Part shown: in pieces, positions 3,244-11,860 of the stretch
How positions within the stretch are numbered: position 1 is the first letter of the stretch
Layout: each line of letters starts with the position of its first letter
Assembly (NCBI RefSeq): GCF_000591055.1
Contig: NC_020388.1
Coordinates: forward strand, 2,170,001-2,234,000
Direction of reading: 5' to 3'
DNA: 64,000 bases
DNA from: Natronomonas moolapensis 8.8.11
GTDB taxonomy: Archaea > Halobacteriota > Halobacteria > Halobacteriales > Haloarculaceae
Notes under the pieces: model-generated
Told to the model about the DNA's origin: nothing
Seen by the model: only the letters and a program-made list of their open reading frames with translations
Database searches by the model: none
Translations under genes and position numbers: made by a program

Positions 3244-3930
3244 TCACCCCACCAGCGCCGCGAGCAGGACCTTGTCGAGTTCGAACAGGAGGGCGACGCC
3301 GGTCGCGACGAGGGCGTACCCGCTGAGCCGCCGGACCACCGAGGGCCGATCGAGCGACGTGACGTAGCCCGTGAGCGTCTCGCCCGCGCGACGGCCGCCG
3401 TAGGCGACGACGAGCAGCGGTCCCGAGAAGCCGACGCCGTAGGCGAAAAGCAGGGTCGCACTGCCGGTGACGTCCCCGGAGGCGCCGACGTACGCGAGCA
3501 CGCTGCCGAGGATCGGGCCGACGCAGGGCAGCCAGATGATCCCGAGAAAGAGCCCGAGGACGAACCCCCCGACGAGGGGGTGATGCGCGCGCTCGACGGC
3601 CGTGGTGAACTGCGTCACGGGAGCGGTGAGCCGCGACGTGGCGGTCGTGTAGGCCTCGTGGAGGTCGTCGTCGGCCAGCACCGCGCCGAAGGCGATGATC
3701 GCGAGGACAAAGGGCAGCCGGAACGTCTCGGGGGTGACCGACCCGACGGCGGCCGTCGAGACTCCGAGGCCGGTAAACGAGAGAATGCTCCCGGCGACGA
3801 TGGCGATCGGCCGGAGGCGGTGGCCGGCGCTGCCGGCTAAAAGCGGCGGGAGCATCGGGAGACAACACGGCGTCAGGGCGGTCAGGACTCCGGCGAGGAG
3901 CACCGCGGCGACGCCCGGCGTTTCGAGCAT
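3244..3930 (-). CDS. ccdA: CcdA/DsbD-type membrane thiol-disulfide transporter
   Basis: A 228-aa polytopic membrane protein of the CcdA (DsbD transmembrane domain) family. It carries reducing equivalents across the membrane for cytochrome c maturation. The two diagnostic Cys-Pro motifs are present: TPCCLPMLPP near residues 20-29 (C22/C23) and WLPCVGPILG near 133-142 (C136). About six hydrophobic segments are visible, the usual number. It reads leftwards in the same direction as the diheme cytochrome gene, ending the left half of a divergent c-type cytochrome cluster. The partner thioredoxin and CcmF lie on the right half. The ATG at 3930 leads directly into the first membrane helix. Confidence 0.93.
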   Translation of the reverse strand: MLETPGVAAVLLAGVLTALTPCCLPMLPPLLAGSAGHRLRPIAIVAGSILSFTGLGVSTAAVGSVTPETFRLPFVLAIIAFGAVLADDDLHEAYTTATSRLTAPVTQFTTAVERAHHPLVGGFVLGLFLGIIWLPCVGPILGSVLAYVGASGDVTGSATLLFAYGVGFSGPLLVVAYGGRRAGETLTGYVTSLDRPSVVRRLSGYALVATGVALLFELDKVLLAALVG

Positions 3931-4026
3931 GTAGTGTGGTTTCGATATCGAACTGAAGAACGTGACGGTTGCTCGCGATATCGCGGGGGCGACCGCGAGT
4001 GCGATCAGAAGGCTACGATCGCAGGG

Positions 4027-5259
4027 TCACTCCTCGGCCGGGTCGACCGTTTCGTTTCGGAGCGGTTGGTCGTACCGTCCGACGTCGTCGGGGATGTCGG
4101 ACTCGTTGAGCGGTTGGGTCCCCGTCGGCATGTCGGCAAGCATGAGCTTCTTTTTCATCGGGTTCATCTCGTATCCGAGCCGTTCTTGGGTCCGGTTGTA
4201 ATAGATGCCTTCGTCGGGCGTCCCGTCCGGGAAGTCCTTTGACTTCTCGGGGAACTCGGGGCGGTCGTGGGCGTTCATGAACCCGGCGATGTCGTGGACG
4301 TCCTCCCAGTCGGTCACGTCGTGGGCGTAGCCGTACGGCATCGCCTCGCGGATGTAGGACGCCGAGGTGTACATCCGACCCATCCCGGCGCCGTCGTTGA
4401 ACGAGCGGGGGCCCCAGAGGGGCGGGTAGACGACGCTGCCGTCGTCGTCGACTTCGCCCTGGCCGTCGGCGCCGTGACAGGACGCACAGTTCTCGAGGTA
4501 CAACTCGGCGCCGCGGACCGGGTTGACCTCCTCGACCGGCACCTTCTCGTCGCCGGTCGGCTTGTTCAGGTGCGACCAGTATGGCTGGCCCTTGGTCGGG
4601 ACGCCCTCGCTGAGCCACATCATGTACGCCTCCATGGCCTGTATCTCGCGGCTGTCGTAGTCCGGCGCGCCCTCCTCGGACCCCGGCGAGTTCATGCTCC
4701 GCTGGAAGCACCCGATCAGGCGCTGTCGGGTGTCGCGCATCCGGTTCCGCCGGCCCGTCCACTCCGGTAAGTCCGCGCTGGTGCCGACGAGCGGGATCAG
4801 GTTGATGTCCTGACCGACCATCCCGACCGTGGCGACCGACTGGCCGCCGCCGTGACAGCTGGCACACGAGAGTTCGTTCCCGACGTGTTCGGGCATCTCC
4901 TCGGAGGTGTTCGCCATGAGGGTCCGCCCGTACATGATGAGTTCGCGCTCGTTTTCGTTGTCGGGGAGCGTCGACTCGTTCATCTCCTTCGGGACGAAGT
5001 TGATTTCGTCGCCCGCGGTCGCATTCCGATACCGCAACTCGTCTTTGGCCTCACCCTCCCGGAGGTCGCCGTCTATGACTTCCCGGTTCGGCATGTTGGC
5101 CGGAACCTCGGCGGGCTCGGTCGCGTCGACGTCGGGTTGGGGGGTCTCGACGGTCCCGTCGTCGGCTTCACCGCCGTCGCCGGCACCCGGTAGCCCGGTA
5201 CACCCCGCCAGAACGACCATCGCGAGCGTCCCGACGAGAAGCAATACCCTGCGATCCAT
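4027..5259 (-). CDS. TsdA-like diheme c-type cytochrome lipoprotein
   Basis: 410 aa from the ATG at 5259, chosen because it gives an ideal lipoprotein signal (MDRRVLLLVG…VVLAGC, lipidated Cys20); an in-frame ATG at 5277 adds six residues. Two CxxCH heme sites, C132-H136 and C258-H262 (both CASCH), make it a diheme cytochrome exposed outside the cell. The segment after heme 1 (RDTRQRLIGCFQRSMN, then AYMMWLSEGVP) is the signature of thiosulfate dehydrogenase (TsdA) and the related SoxA N-terminal fold. Thiosulfate oxidation is therefore a reasonable but unproven role; it may simply be an electron carrier. It lies divergent to the thioredoxin-ccmF operon that should mature it. Confidence 0.85.
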   Translation of the reverse strand: MDRRVLLLVGTLAMVVLAGCTGLPGAGDGGEADDGTVETPQPDVDATEPAEVPANMPNREVIDGDLREGEAKDELRYRNATAGDEINFVPKEMNESTLPDNENERELIMYGRTLMANTSEEMPEHVGNELSCASCHGGGQSVATVGMVGQDINLIPLVGTSADLPEWTGRRNRMRDTRQRLIGCFQRSMNSPGSEEGAPDYDSREIQAMEAYMMWLSEGVPTKGQPYWSHLNKPTGDEKVPVEEVNPVRGAELYLENCASCHGADGQGEVDDDGSVVYPPLWGPRSFNDGAGMGRMYTSASYIREAMPYGYAHDVTDWEDVHDIAGFMNAHDRPEFPEKSKDFPDGTPDEGIYYNRTQERLGYEMNPMKKKLMLADMPTGTQPLNESDIPDDVGRYDQPLRNETVDPAEE

Positions 5260-5417
5260 TCCTATCGGTGCCTCCATCGACGTGTCCGTCTGCGCACTCG
5301 ATGCATCATGCAGTTGTGCAGATAGTGCACACACAAAAAGTTTTGCATGATCGACCCCACGGATGGCGATGGAGTTAATTATCCGGATACTATCAATACG
5401 ACGTACCACTCGAACAG
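5260..5417. promoter_or_regulatory. Divergent promoter region with nested inverted repeats
   Basis: The 158 bp between the diheme cytochrome (leftward) and the thioredoxin (rightward) are AT-richer than the genes. ATCATGCA at 5305-5312 is the exact inverse of TGCATGAT at 5344-5351. Inside this pair, TGTGCA (5315-5320) and TGCACA (5326-5331) form a second inverted repeat around GATAG. TTAATTAT near 5375-5382 may be the rightward TATA element, about 40 nt before the ATG at 5418. The arrangement suggests a regulator site shared by both operons. Confidence 0.5.
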
Positions 5418-5891
5418 ATGAATCCACGAAAGCTATTCACACTCACGCTTTTGTTCACGGCGCTCGGCATCGGCTACTACTCGATGAACGCGGCACCCGT
5501 GCTGAGCGACGAGTCCTATTCGTATCACGGTGACACCGCCTGGGGAACCGACGTCGACGAGGCGCTCGACACGGCCGCCGCCGAGGACAAGCCCGTCCTC
5601 GTGTACTTCTGGACGACGTGGTGTACGTACTGCGAGGAGTACAACACGAACGCGTACACGGATCCCGGCGTGCTCGACCGACTCGAGGAGTTCGTTCTGC
5701 TCGCGGTAAATCTCGACGACGGCAGCGAGTCGGCGGAGCAACTCCAGGCCGAGTACAACGCGAACTACCCGCCACAGCACGTCGCGATCACACCGGGGGG
5801 CGACGTCCTCGTCGAAATCAACGGCTACGCCGAGCCGGACGGGTTCGCGACCTATCTCGATGACGCCCGAGCGGCGTGGGAACGCCGATGA
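5418..5891 (+). CDS. Membrane-anchored thioredoxin-like protein
   Basis: A 157-aa protein with an N-terminal hydrophobic anchor (about residues 6-23) followed by a thioredoxin fold facing outward. The active site is WCTYC (C69, C72) inside FWTTWCTYCEE, and the cis-Pro region is YPPQHV. Composition and size resemble the C-terminal domain of DsbD and other cytochrome-maturation thioredoxins. It probably receives electrons from CcdA and keeps apocytochrome CxxCH cysteines reduced before heme attachment. Its stop overlaps the ccmF start by 4 nt (ATGA), implying coupled translation. Confidence 0.88.
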   Translation: MNPRKLFTLTLLFTALGIGYYSMNAAPVLSDESYSYHGDTAWGTDVDEALDTAAAEDKPVLVYFWTTWCTYCEEYNTNAYTDPGVLDRLEEFVLLAVNLDDGSESAEQLQAEYNANYPPQHVAITPGGDVLVEINGYAEPDGFATYLDDARAAWERR

Positions 5892-8290
5892 TCGGCACCG
5901 CGTTGCTCGTCTGTGCGCTCGCCTCGGGGCTCGCCGCGACCGGACTCTTGCTCCGGGGGTATCTCCGCCGTGACGACAGCTACGACGCCGCCGTCACGCC
6001 GCTCATCGCAGTTAATGCAGTCTCTCTGACACTATCGCTCGCGTACCTCACCTATCTGTTCGTCGTTACGGACTATACAATCGCGTACGTCTATGACAAC
6101 ACCGCAGACTATATTCCGCTCCTCTATCGGGTTACGGGCGTCTACGCCGGCAACGAGGGGTCGGTGCTGTTGTGGGCGGCCCTGGCCGCCGTCGTCGCTC
6201 TCTGGGCGGCGCTCCTCCGCGGGTTCGAGACCCCCAACGGCAAACTCGTCCAGGCGATCACGGTCGGCGTCGTGACGTACTTCGCCGGGATGTTAGTCGT
6301 CGACAGCCCATTCACCCCGCTCGGAGAGGCCCTCCCGGAGATGGGCAGCGGAGCCGTCCCGCTCGACGGGACGGGGCTCAACCCGCTGTTGATCGATCCC
6401 TACATGGCGATCCACCCGCCGATGATGTTCGTCGCGTACGGGCTGTTGACGATGCCGTTCGCAATCGGCGTCACCCACTTCGTCTCGACGCTCCGCGGTG
6501 ACGGCGGCGTCTTCGGGGCGTGGATCGGCAGCATCACGCGCTGGGTTCGCATCTCGTGGCTGTTTCTGACGACCGCGATCGTCCTCGGCTCGCTTTGGTC
6601 GTACCGCGTGCTCGGGTGGGGCGGCATCTGGGCGTGGGATCCCGTCGAAACCGCGGTGTTGATCCCGTGGATATTCCTCACCGCGACGCTGCACGCCGTA
6701 ATCAATTACCGGTCGCAGTCGACGTACGCGACGCTCGCCCCGGCGATGACGTCGGCGACGCTCGCGCTCATCGTCTACGCGACCGCCATCGTCAGAAGCG
6801 GCGTCTTCCGCAGCGTCCACTCCTTTGCCAACGACGGGATCGGATCCGCGCTCTTGATTCTGCTCGCCGCGACGCTCGTCCTCGGCGTCGGCTTGCCGCT
6901 CGGCTACTGGCTGGTTCGGGAACCGGCGGAGTCAAGCGCCGGAACGAAGCGGTGGCTCACGCGCTCGAACGTCCTCCATCTGGCCGTTCTCGGCATCGGC
7001 CTCCTCGGATTCATCTCGGTGTGGGGCCTCACGTTCCCGGTTCTCAGCAACTACACCACCGGCGTCGAGGTCGAGTTGACCAGTATGTACTACAACCTCT
7101 GGAGCTATGCGATCCTCGTCGCGATCCTCCTGACGCTCGGCTTCTACATGGACTACGACGTCGAAGGGCGACGGCGCGCGCTGGCCTCGCTCGGCGTCTT
7201 CGGCGCCGCGACGGTCGTGGCCGCGTTGATCGCACCGAGCGCGACGTGGACGCTCGCCGAGACCAATCCGGGTGACGTCATGTTCTATCGACTCTTGGGG
7301 AGCGCGAGCGTGCTCTCGATCGTCCCGCCGGCGGCGTACGTCTGTCTCACCGTGATCAAGCGCGCGCTCGAGTTGATCCCCGGATCGCCGAACCGACACT
7401 TCCAACTCAAACAGACCGGCATCACGATGGTCCACGTCGGCCTCGTGCTGCTCGTCGTTTCGGTCTCGTTTTCGTATCTGTTCGTCACCGAATCGTCGGT
7501 GATCATAGACAACGCCGAACGGGAGGCGGCCCTCGAGGCGCCGCCGGTCCACGACGTCCCCGAATCGGCGTACGCCGTCGAGGTGACCGACTACGACGAG
7601 TATCAGCGACCCGCCTCCCCGGACATCGAGAACGTCGCGCTCTCGGTCGGGCAGGTGACCGACCGGGGACGGTCGATACACGAGACGGTCCAGCCGGTCT
7701 ACGGGACCGTCACGCAGGTCAACCGGGGGCCGGAGGCGACGATCGTCCAACTCGACGGCTCGCCGATCTGGATCGGTATCGTCGGGGAGGGCCACGAGAC
7801 GGTCGAGGTCTCCGAGGGCCAGCGCCTGGTCGGCGTCGGCTACGTCATGTGGGACTACCTCCCCGAAACGCCCCAGACCGACGCCGTCGTCGTCGCCGAA
7901 CCCGGAAACGTCGGCCCGACGACGGACCCGCCGGCCTCGATCGATCAGACGCGCGTGCTCGGAAGCAGCGTCGGCCTCACCGTCTACGAGGGCGGCGAGC
8001 GGATCGCGAACGGCGACGCGGGCCAGGAGCGCTACGTCCAACAAAGCGACATGGAGGTCCGGGACGTCTTCGTCGACCGGGGCGTGGCCCACGACACCTA
8101 CGTCATCGCGGCGGTCGACGACGGCACCGCCTCCCTGACAGTCCGGCGAATCCCGCTCATGAACCTCATGCGCATCAGCGCTCTGACGCTCCTTTCGGGG
8201 ATGGCTCTCGTGTTGCTGTTCGACCCCGCGTACGGCCTCGTCCCGCGGTTCAGCTACCGTTCGCGGGGCGTCGAGGCGAGTTCCGATTGA
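5888..8290 (+). CDS. ccmF: CcmF-type cytochrome c heme lyase
   Basis: An 800-aa polytopic membrane protein of the CcmF/CcsA heme-handling family. The WWD-type heme-binding motif is LGWGGIWAWDPVE at about residues 242-254. Upstream are GNEGSVLLW and the conserved IHPPMMF histidine near residue 174. I chose the ATG at 5888 because it overlaps the thioredoxin stop (ATGA); an earlier in-frame ATG adds four residues. Late in the chain is an external segment (about 601-655, VYGTVTQV…GQRLVGVGYVMWDY) that reads like a small beta-barrel, then a final membrane helix (PLMNLMRISALTLLSGMALVLL). No CcmE, CcmC or CcmH gene is adjacent. Confidence 0.93.
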   Translation: MIGTALLVCALASGLAATGLLLRGYLRRDDSYDAAVTPLIAVNAVSLTLSLAYLTYLFVVTDYTIAYVYDNTADYIPLLYRVTGVYAGNEGSVLLWAALAAVVALWAALLRGFETPNGKLVQAITVGVVTYFAGMLVVDSPFTPLGEALPEMGSGAVPLDGTGLNPLLIDPYMAIHPPMMFVAYGLLTMPFAIGVTHFVSTLRGDGGVFGAWIGSITRWVRISWLFLTTAIVLGSLWSYRVLGWGGIWAWDPVETAVLIPWIFLTATLHAVINYRSQSTYATLAPAMTSATLALIVYATAIVRSGVFRSVHSFANDGIGSALLILLAATLVLGVGLPLGYWLVREPAESSAGTKRWLTRSNVLHLAVLGIGLLGFISVWGLTFPVLSNYTTGVEVELTSMYYNLWSYAILVAILLTLGFYMDYDVEGRRRALASLGVFGAATVVAALIAPSATWTLAETNPGDVMFYRLLGSASVLSIVPPAAYVCLTVIKRALELIPGSPNRHFQLKQTGITMVHVGLVLLVVSVSFSYLFVTESSVIIDNAEREAALEAPPVHDVPESAYAVEVTDYDEYQRPASPDIENVALSVGQVTDRGRSIHETVQPVYGTVTQVNRGPEATIVQLDGSPIWIGIVGEGHETVEVSEGQRLVGVGYVMWDYLPETPQTDAVVVAEPGNVGPTTDPPASIDQTRVLGSSVGLTVYEGGERIANGDAGQERYVQQSDMEVRDVFVDRGVAHDTYVIAAVDDGTASLTVRRIPLMNLMRISALTLLSGMALVLLFDPAYGLVPRFSYRSRGVEASSD

Positions 8291-8321
8291 TCCGCGTCCG
8301 TTCCAACCGCATTCATAACCC

Positions 8322-9548
8322 ATGACACACCGACCTACGTCCGTACTACTCGTTTCGCTCACGCTCGCGCTGTTCGCCGCGCTCGCACTGACGGCCGGCG
8401 TCGGCGCCGCGGCGTCGACCACCGGCTCCGTCACCGTCGAGAACGGCTCGGCAGACGGCTACAACGTCACCGTCGCCGCCCTCGACCCGTCGAACGAGCC
8501 GATCGTCGACCCGGTCGAGACGACCGTCGAAAACGGGACGTTCAGCTACGAGCCGGTCGACAACGCGACGTCGTACTTCCTCCGACTGGAATCGGAGGAC
8601 GCGGTGTACTACAATCTCGCCGATCCCGGCGAGGACCCGGCGTTCGTTCTGGACCGACGCGTCACCGGGACCGTCGTCGACGAGTCCGGCACACCCGTTC
8701 CGAACGCCACCGTCGAGGTGGTGAGCCAACACGGCCCCCAGGTGAATCAGGTGCCGGTGTCGGCGGACGGGACCTTCGAGATCGAACCGCTGCAACCCGA
8801 CCGAACGTATACCCTCCGGATCCGGGCCGACGGCGCGGTCTATGAGGACGTCGTCTCGACGGACGCACCGACGACGGAGATCGACGTGGAACTACCGGCC
8901 CCGATCGCCGATCCGGGGGCGCTCGAACTCAGCGGCGGGCGGCCGGTGAATCACCTCATGCGGGTCGGCCCGACGGAGAGCGGGGACGGGCTGTTCGTCA
9001 TCGAGATACTCTCGGTTCGGAACGGCGTTGACCGGCCGTTCGTGGGGGCCGTCGACTTCGCGGTCCCCTCGAACGCCAAGGTCGTCTCGGGGATGGTGCA
9101 AAACGAGCGCGTCGACGCCGCCGCCGAGAACGGGACCGTAGGGGTCGAGGCGTCGATCAAATCGGGCGAGACGGTCCAGGTGGCGGCGATCTACCGGATC
9201 GACGAGCACACGCTCGAGAAGCCGGTCGGCTACGACGTCGACGAGTTCGCCGTCATGCTCGAGGAGTACGACCTGTCGCAGGCCGAGTTCTCGAACAACC
9301 TCGTCGAGGCGGAGACGGGAATGGACGTGCCGATGGTGACGAACACCGCCCCGCTCGGCGCTACCGACCGGATCTCGGTGCAGGTGTCCGGCCCGCCGGC
9401 GGGCACCGGAAACGCCTCGACACCCGCCGGGCAGTCGACGCCGGGGGCCGGATCGGAATCTGGGGCGGGCGGGCTCCCCGTCCTGCCGCTGGGCGTGGCC
9501 TTCGTGGGGACGGTCGCCGGCGGGATCGCGGTGTATCGATACGTCTAG
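8322..9548 (+). CDS. Exported, C-terminally anchored protein with carboxypeptidase-regulatory-like domain
   Basis: 408 aa with a clear Sec signal peptide (about 1-31, ending AGVGAAA). A carboxypeptidase-regulatory/prealbumin-like beta domain follows (GTVVDESGTPVPNATVEV near 110-127), then an acidic central domain, a Ser/Thr/Gly-rich linker (about 355-385) and a single C-terminal helix (LPVLPLGVAFVGTVAGGIAVYRYV). The bulk therefore lies outside the cell. It starts 31 nt after ccmF on the same strand and is probably cotranscribed, hinting at a role in cytochrome c maturation or in housing a redox partner. No enzymatic motif is visible. Confidence 0.7.
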   Translation: MTHRPTSVLLVSLTLALFAALALTAGVGAAASTTGSVTVENGSADGYNVTVAALDPSNEPIVDPVETTVENGTFSYEPVDNATSYFLRLESEDAVYYNLADPGEDPAFVLDRRVTGTVVDESGTPVPNATVEVVSQHGPQVNQVPVSADGTFEIEPLQPDRTYTLRIRADGAVYEDVVSTDAPTTEIDVELPAPIADPGALELSGGRPVNHLMRVGPTESGDGLFVIEILSVRNGVDRPFVGAVDFAVPSNAKVVSGMVQNERVDAAAENGTVGVEASIKSGETVQVAAIYRIDEHTLEKPVGYDVDEFAVMLEEYDLSQAEFSNNLVEAETGMDVPMVTNTAPLGATDRISVQVSGPPAGTGNASTPAGQSTPGAGSESGAGGLPVLPLGVAFVGTVAGGIAVYRYV

Positions 9549-11284: not shown

Positions 11285-11291
11285 ATTTATG
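11285..11291 (+). promoter_or_regulatory. TATA box of the halocyanin gene
   Basis: ATTTATG centred about 33 nt before the ATG at 11321; this spacing supports that ATG over the in-frame start 30 nt upstream. Confidence 0.5.
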
Positions 11292-11320
11292 TGTATCCGG
11301 TACCAACGCCGCAGTTGTAT

Positions 11321-11860
11321 ATGAAAGAGTTCAGTCGACGTCGGTTCGTCATCGGTACCGCTGCTACGGCTGCGACGGGCGCGCTCGCAGGCTGTTCGGG
11401 CAACGGTGGCGGCAACGGCAACGGCAACGGAAGCGGCAACGGCAACGGCGACATGGACGGCAACGGTGGCGGCAACGGCGGCGCCGAAGGCCCCGAGGCC
11501 CGCGCGGAAGCGTTCGTCAGCGACAACGACGCGAACCAGTATGAGAACTCCCTCGAGGACATGACCGGGCAAGACGAGGTCGTCATCGAGACGGGAGCCG
11601 GCGACAACGGCTTCTCCTTTAGCCCCTCGGGCGTGGTCGTCTCCACCGGGACGAACGTCGTCTGGGAGTGGACCGGCGAGGGCGGCGCACACAACGTCGT
11701 CTCAGAGGACGGCAGCGACTACGAGTTCGAGAGCGAACTCACCGGCGAGGCGGGCTACACCATCGAGCAGACCGTCGACGAGGCCGGTGCGGTCCTCTAC
11801 GTCTGCATCCCCCACCGCGCGCAGGGTATGTACGGCGCCGTCGCCGTCGTCGACGAGTAA
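11321..11860 (+). CDS. Halocyanin (type I copper lipoprotein)
   Basis: 179 aa. The N-terminus combines a twin-arginine motif (SRRRFVIG) with a lipobox (ALAGC, Cys25), so it is exported folded and lipid-anchored. A Gly/Asn-rich flexible tether spans about residues 27-54. The cupredoxin domain then supplies all four blue-copper ligands: H124 (GGAHNVV), C162 (LYVC), H165 (IPH) and M170 (AQGM). Halocyanins are one-electron carriers on the outer face of the haloarchaeal membrane, linking respiratory complexes and oxidases. The promoter is its own; the next gene on the same strand has a separate TATA element. Confidence 0.95.
   Translation: MKEFSRRRFVIGTAATAATGALAGCSGNGGGNGNGNGSGNGNGDMDGNGGGNGGAEGPEARAEAFVSDNDANQYENSLEDMTGQDEVVIETGAGDNGFSFSPSGVVVSTGTNVVWEWTGEGGAHNVVSEDGSDYEFESELTGEAGYTIEQTVDEAGAVLYVCIPHRAQGMYGAVAVVDE

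Follow-up and report, generated by a model that had tools for sequence, protein, structure and literature searches.

An exported beta-domain protein encoded beside ccmF is a candidate docking subunit for cytochrome c maturation in haloarchaea and beyond

The genome of Natronomonas moolapensis 8.8.11 (G000; 2.91 Mb, one contig) carries a compact divergent locus that joins a TsdA-type diheme cytochrome c to genes for cytochrome maturation. It occupies positions 3244–9548 of the window, as we call the whole 64,000-nucleotide stretch analysed (C1:2170001–2234000). CcdA and the cytochrome are encoded on one strand, and a thioredoxin-fold protein, CcmF and an exported, C-terminally anchored protein, here named P5, on the other. 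CcmA, CcmB, CcmC and CcmE are not among its genes. What does P5 do beside CcmF, and where does the rest of the System I (Ccm) machinery come from? A sequence-only reading of the window had described the five-gene arrangement and proposed P5 as a maturation partner, its co-occurrence with CcmF to be checked over haloarchaea. The listing of open reading frames (ORFs) gave five intact frames at the positions described, and their families were confirmed (Table 1).

To follow P5, we searched 391 Halobacteria genomes, drawn from the larger class, with a presence threshold of E < 1e-30; seven genomes with P5 matches of E 1e-7 to 1e-3 were set aside before counting. CcmF was present in 40 genomes. In 26 of them, with 28 copies, it was of the window type (type A, at least 49% identical), always together with TsdA. 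The CcmF of the other 14 genomes was at most 46% identical, and was linked to a peroxidase in 13 (type B). P5 was found in exactly the 26 genomes with type A CcmF and TsdA, with 28 copies of each of the three. At this threshold it was found in none of the 14 genomes with only another CcmF and in none of the 351 without CcmF, bearing out the proposed co-occurrence (Fisher p 9e-31, overstated because the genomes are related). P5 adjoined ccmF in 27 of the 28 copies, including both copies in each genome with a duplicated locus. Two genomes, G325 (L074/L075) and G319 (L083/L084), had two complete type A loci each, P5 and TsdA included.

The type A loci shared one layout, ccmC-ccdA-tsdA divergent to trx-ccmF-P5, with ccmB-ccmA-ccmE following P5 in 16 loci and lying beyond ccmC in 10. 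The same five genes recurred in the other contiguous type A loci, so their combination in the window is not due to chance. Besides the window there were 26 contiguous loci, of which 25 had the full set with ccmC, ccmA, ccmB and ccmE; in the remaining one (L065) the contig end interrupts the locus before ccmC. The window is the sole contiguous type A locus seen without ccmABCE. It had been read as a cytochrome united with most of a reduced maturation machinery; the union stands, "most" does not, since CcmABCE are encoded elsewhere, whereas the relatives carry the whole set.

The lacking components were found at C1:2336545–2341130, in a second locus (L004) about 160 kb from that of the window. 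L004 resembles the type B loci, with a layout of peroxidase-trx-ccmF, ccmB-ccmA, ccdA, ccmE, a sulfite-oxidase-like ORF and ccmC. Of the 13 type B loci other than L004, 11 had the whole arrangement, and parts were missing from L095 and L096 within the stretch taken. L004 itself has no CcdA, the only CcdA/DsbD_TM gene of the genome being the one in the window. Genome searches with PF01578, PF03100 and PF02683 gave one CcmC, one CcmE and one CcdA, and because each is single and they are divided between the two loci, the loci complement each other. The window locus is not self-sufficient, and the CcmA, CcmB, CcmC and CcmE that System I requires are present in the same genome as its CcmF. Both loci would share CcmABCE and CcdA.

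Outside the haloarchaea, the P5 profile matched five of six genomes behind named loci, two of them Halorussus (type A). The other three were an Archaeoglobi metagenome-assembled genome (MAG; L195), a Ca. Methanoperedens MAG (L196) and an uncultured archaeon (L197). Their P5 relatives shared operons with genes for CcmF, CcmH and a CcmE-like protein; the TsdA query had no match in these stretches. Being beside ccmF where no TsdA matched, these relatives separate a partner of CcmF from a partner of TsdA. A replacement of CcmH by P5, as such, was rejected, because P5 of the window has no cysteine and CcmH stands beside P5 relatives in L195–L197; P5 of the window also had no PF03918 (CcmH) match.

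A scan of 364 Halobacteriota genomes gave P5 profile matches in 40. Thirteen were set aside as missing the core, 12 with only the N-terminal or transthyretin-like (TTR) part and one with only the C-terminal end; G405 was retained although its listed match was TTR only, two P5 ORFs having been found there. The remaining 27 genomes, three haloarchaeal and 24 non-haloarchaeal, all fell among the 160 with CcmF (G578 and G688 are probably the same assemblies as G396 and G393). In 11 of the 24, P5 lay beside ccmF, in some cases beside split ccmF halves, and in G670 beside ccmH with ccmF 5 kb off. Using a wider profile, we found one more P5 core beside ccmF (L256) among 20 further CcmF loci, some of them from genomes with P5 elsewhere. 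Unlinked P5-core genes of family f15 were at L234–L237, L242–L245, L247, L251 and L252, in genomes that have CcmF. Immediately upstream of ccmF in G443 is an open frame of 1985 residues (L272:1–5955) that contains 48 CxxCH motifs, recalling the ANME MHC-B/CcmF2 pairs described in PMC9012536.

A mostly bacterial sample was mined through the best 80 CcmF loci among the matches listed, from named contigs; 78 of these are L109–L186. The wider profile matched the P5 core in 20 of the 78, with titles naming Planctomycetota, Acidobacteriota, Chloroflexota, Calditrichota, Bacillota and others. The matches were concentrated downstream of ccmF: 16 of 111 ORFs (at least 200 aa) starting within 1.2 kb downstream had the core, against 4 of 1737 others, also near ccmF. 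On the same 80 loci the narrower profile matched only two Halorussus loci. Ten of the 20 P5 proteins were scanned with Pfam and NCBIfam, which gave TTR-like, SHOCT, GvpG or cytochrome domains, or nothing. In two bacterial relatives (L121:5673–7604 and L127:12322–13821), c-type cytochrome domains were fused to the N-terminal side of the P5 part. Two further ORFs near ccmF (L170:5831–6466 and L179:5423–6295) were missed by the profile and gave phmmer matches to P5 members of L160 and L165. They were left out of the 20, and neither had a tetratricopeptide repeat (TPR) match. Judging by such matches, the counts probably understate both the spread of the family and its divergence.

The bacterial loci also related P5 to CcmI, described in PMC3884852 as the apocytochrome chaperone, with a TPR domain, of a CcmFHI synthase. 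In 74 loci (L113–L186; L132 is an archaeal MAG) we looked for a TPR protein up to 5 kb downstream with an iterated profile, in place of a first regular expression that had matched in no locus. P5 was present in 20 loci, a CcmI-type TPR protein in 18, neither in 36 and both in none, where 4.9 were expected (p 0.001). With the count restricted to the 59 loci that extend 2.5 kb or more downstream, the numbers were 20, 16, 23 and none, respectively (p 0.0003). An NCBIfam scan of downstream ORFs matched a TPR model in 12 of 128 from loci without P5, ABC models dominating the matches.

Several non-haloarchaeal archaeal P5 proteins end in a transmembrane (TM) segment and a charged coil. These tails matched short coil proteins that have genes of their own in bacterial ccm operons; they also matched the coil of a long protein running from CcmH to TPR (L128). 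The phmmer i-E values were 3e-12 to 6e-8, for a set of fewer than 200 sequences. Nine of ten such coil proteins matched TIGR03142 (CcmI) at E < 0.1, the best at 6e-5 and all under the cut-off. By these matches, a CcmI-like coil is fused to P5 in several archaea and is a separate gene in bacteria. Since the P5 tails match bacterial coil and CcmI-like proteins, the same platform seems to be fitted with P5 in some cases and with a TPR domain in others. P5 of the window ends just past its TM segment, without a TIGR03142 match, and had no TPR match in Pfam.

The AlphaFold2 model of P5 (10 sequences, mean pLDDT 80.7, pTM 0.70) had an ectodomain that is nearly all beta, with domains at about 33–110, 112–190 and 201–355 between two terminal helices. 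P5 is thus predicted to consist of two TTR-like domains (~33–110, 112–190), a core resembling a beta-saddle (~197–357) and a C-terminal TM segment. With VIA-align, residues 111–194 resembled TTR-like domains (best Z 12.1, 79 residues, root-mean-square deviation (rmsd) 1.9). Residues 197–357 resembled the N-terminal domain of M1 aminopeptidases and LTA4 hydrolase (Z 10.1–10.6, ~143–151 residues, rmsd 3.7–4.0) and yeast Ost1 (Z 10.5, 163 residues, rmsd 4.9). Homology to either was rejected, the resemblance being of fold only; the modelled fold would fit a peptide-handling role. The top Foldseek match was the surface-layer (S-layer) protein 8qox_B (E 2.6e-7, TM-score 0.20). Sequence searches of the PDB gave nothing useful (best E 0.31), and the best profile match was to NOMO2 (E 0.0016). 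Across 68 family members (24 haloarchaeal, 24 other archaeal and 20 from the bacterial set), N234 and P249 were kept in 67, Y291 in 62 and H211 in 50.

With confidence slightly above even, we read the window locus as a client-specific System I synthase cassette in which P5 is the apocytochrome-docking subunit of CcmF. CcdA and the thioredoxin, for which a CcmG-like role is inferred, would act outside the membrane and maintain the TsdA apocytochrome with its CxxC in the reduced state. CcmE would deliver heme, and CcmF would attach it to the apocytochrome. Anchored in the membrane, P5 would form a complex with CcmF and hold the apocytochrome, its beta domains doing the job of the bacterial CcmI TPR domain. 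The cassette would draw on the CcmABCE of the second locus, itself without CcdA, so that one heme-delivery set and one CcdA would serve two client-specific thioredoxin-CcmF units.

A broader proposal, which we hold more tentatively and place just short of even, is that P5 represents a new and ancient family of CcmF-synthase subunits, in archaea and about ten bacterial phyla. It would correspond to the TPR domain of CcmI/NrfG without being homologous to it, serving as a beta-saddle adaptor for apocytochromes on the same platform of CcmF, CcmH and coil. Swapping adaptor and CcmF over a shared heme delivery would then set which cytochrome is matured, and the window genome, with a cassette lacking its own CcmABCE, would be a natural experiment.

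Several observations weigh against a docking subunit of CcmF. Within haloarchaea P5, type A CcmF and TsdA are inseparable, and G021 has P5 next to, and divergent from, tsdA on one contig, with ccmF but no P5 on another. Twelve of the 24 non-haloarchaeal P5-core genomes, 11 of them in family f15, have the gene unlinked to ccm genes within the stretches taken. There was no P5-core match in 133 of the 160 CcmF genomes of the phylum sample, nor P5 in 19 of the 20 further CcmF loci. P5 is therefore not essential to CcmF in general, and the idea that it belongs to every CcmF was ruled out. The haloarchaeal P5 proteins have no coil tail, and only four of 13 P5 relatives scanned matched TIGR03142 (E 0.009–0.13, none over the cut-off). 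Finally, going by their titles, 12 of the 18 loci with a TPR protein come from actinobacteria, so that the exclusion of P5 and TPR partly follows phylogeny and counts lineages rather than independent events.

The haloarchaeal linkage could also mean that P5 partners the TsdA enzyme, as anchor, scaffold or docking site for electron transfer, and lies near ccmF because the whole locus is one unit. That P5 and TsdA share the same 26 of 391 genomes in equal copy numbers, and that P5 of G021 adjoins tsdA and not ccmF, would agree with this. The relatives beside ccmF without a TsdA match (L195–L197), the core in 20 of 78 other CcmF loci (best 80 listed) and the exclusion of TPR proteins in 74 loci point away from it, and we consider an enzyme partner unlikely, with perhaps a one in five standing. 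Less probable is that the core is a general surface module and P5 an envelope protein that recurs near ccm genes but has no set part in assembling cytochromes. The 11 f15 genomes and G414 carry it away from ccm genes, the TTR domain is common and the best Foldseek match is an S-layer protein; against this stand the strong enrichment downstream of ccmF (16/111 vs 4/1737) and the one-to-one copy number with type A CcmF.

The window locus might also be a laterally acquired, decaying and functionless remnant that has lost ccmABCE. In a tree its CcmF clustered with family f3, apart from the type A copies of family f1, to which its genome belongs, and P5 and TsdA were found in none of the 10 other sampled genomes of the genus; lateral acquisition is likely. 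Together with the absence of ccmABCE, seen in no other contiguous type A locus, this would suit a remnant. All five frames are intact, however, the heme motifs, the Cys motif and the WWD region and histidines of CcmF are retained, and the second locus supplies CcmABCE and misses only CcdA, which the window has. We regard decay as quite improbable, the least likely of these alternatives. Type A is not strictly one clade: a quick tree, in which branches were long, placed L091 with type B (support 86).

Compared with known systems, the two loci resemble the streamlined archaeal System I (CcmABCEF): CcmF, a thioredoxin and CcdA are in the window, CcmABCE are elsewhere in the genome, and no CcmH match was found in any of the 26 haloarchaeal genomes searched. 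CcmH is described as absent from most archaea in PMC9084895 and PMC4429474. The differences are two client-linked CcmF types on one CcmABCE set, and the added P5. As for CcmE, the haloarchaeal proteins had "RAH" at the expected heme-binding place in all 38 aligned (L004 and loci L065–L105) and CxxxY in none. We take this His, by eye, to be the equivalent of E. coli His130. The CcmE of L106, outside the 38, had KSH. A statement in PMC9084895 (2022) gives Cys at this place for all sequenced archaea, in contrast to the His here. At L106 (5622–12410, genome G346), CcmF is of a third type among haloarchaea, and its neighbours, identified by eye, are an iron-sulfur subunit, a membrane protein like NrfD and a multi-CxxCH protein.

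P5 is like CcmI/NrfG in lying beside ccmF, in being exported and anchored, in the related coil of several archaeal members and in the mutual exclusion over 74 loci. It differs in having beta domains instead of TPR and, in its haloarchaeal form, no coil; no homology between the P5 ectodomain and CcmI/NrfG was found. A CcmF tied to one cytochrome is already known from NrfE and from the CcmF2 beside ANME MHC-B (PMC9012536), and the client in the window differs in carrying two hemes and two CxxCH sites of the ordinary kind. A 2015 study (PMC4429474) described, in five haloarchaeal species, homologs of thiosulfate dehydrogenase whose genes form operon-like groups with ccm genes. We found no description of P5 in the open PMC literature, a scope that leaves out most subscription papers, and the family is apparently widespread and undescribed. 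For archaeal c-type cytochromes made without CcmH and CcmI, the authors of PMC9084895 considered it improbable that a replacement exists, though they were unable to rule it out. P5 is a concrete candidate for this question in haloarchaea. It ties them to an undescribed subunit of many bacterial System I operons, now labelled transthyretin-like or unlabelled, and makes client recognition at the last step of cytochrome c assembly a testable claim.

The TsdA signature noted from the sequence was upheld. The cytochrome matched Allochromatium (A. vinosum) TsdA with phmmer E 4e-47 over residues 98–342, sharing two CxxCH motifs, the Cys motif and the heme 2 Met with TsdA (4v2k, 4wq7). Cys184 aligned with the Cys of AvTsdA "DCFERSLN" and was invariant in 14 of 14 sequences. 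We take this position to be the axial ligand of heme 1, in line with PMC6879331. The homolog differs in being a lipoprotein and in the Lys just before the heme 2 Met of A. vinosum TsdA, which is Ala or Ser in 14 of 14 sequences, the Met being kept. With this Lys replaced, a His/Met heme 2 like that of the C. jejuni enzyme is expected, which lies at +172 mV in a protein acting as tetrathionate reductase (PMC6879331). TsdA activity, whether thiosulfate oxidation or tetrathionate reduction, is plausible. ATG 5259 is the best start of the ORF, and an alternative GTG at 5427 is possible.

Table 1 Features of the window locus, its neighbourhood and the second ccm locus (L004). Positions are those of the window unless a locus is given.
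Feature	Position	Strand	Evidence
CcdA (DsbD_TM)	3244..3930	-	Pfam E 6e-18; sole PF02683 match in genome
TsdA-type diheme cytochrome c lipoprotein, client cytochrome	4027..5259	-	Pfam SoxA-TsdA_cyt-c + Cytochrom_C
CxxCH 2 codons (CASCH, heme 2)	4474..4488	-	motif search
Cys184 codon	4708..4710	-	aligns with Cys of TsdA motif CFERS(L/M)N
CxxCH 1 codons (CASCH, heme 1)	4852..4866	-	motif search
Thioredoxin-fold protein, CTYC (CxxC) motif	5418..5891	+	family scans
CcmF, TsdA-linked (type A)	5876..8290	+	Cytochrom_C_asm E 1.5e-25; TIGR00353 E 5e-60
P5, exported, C-terminally anchored protein	8322..9548	+	hydrophobic N-terminus, C-terminal TM-like segment; CarboxypepD_reg E 2e-13
Cupredoxin	11291-11860		family scan
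L004 diheme cytochrome c peroxidase			3o5c E 2e-76; MauG also matched
L004 second thioredoxin and second CcmF			
L004 CcmB			match to 7f02_B E 3e-6
L004 CcmA			ABC ATPase; named by place next to CcmB
L004 CcmE	L004:12127-12582		PF03100
L004 CcmC			PF01578
L004 sulfite-oxidase-family ORF			1ogp E 1.5e-21

The thioredoxin had been called a membrane protein, a description that was dropped, no segment lying above the TM cut-off used. The TIGR00353 match of CcmF is under the cut-off of the model despite its E-value, and an alternative start at ATG 5888 would leave a 4-nt overlap with the thioredoxin stop. A profile alignment with 6zmq (E 6e-55) brought WGG.WAWDPVE and three His regions into register, and H516 was invariant in 19 of 19 sequences. 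These WWD and His positions are presumably the equivalents of the E. coli heme ligands. Inside ccmF, ARAGORN called a tRNA-Arg (TCT) at 6165–6243, which we rejected as spurious; it had no Rfam match, and 15 of 16 related or paralogous loci scanned gave no such call, L083 giving an unlike tRNA-Ala. The cupredoxin is a possible electron partner, and homologs lay inside seven of the 26 other type A loci. At 215–2027 the G + C content of the window falls to 46%, against 64–72% in the remainder; this stretch holds three archaellin-like genes (identified by eye) in tandem, and the N-termini of their products are nearly identical.

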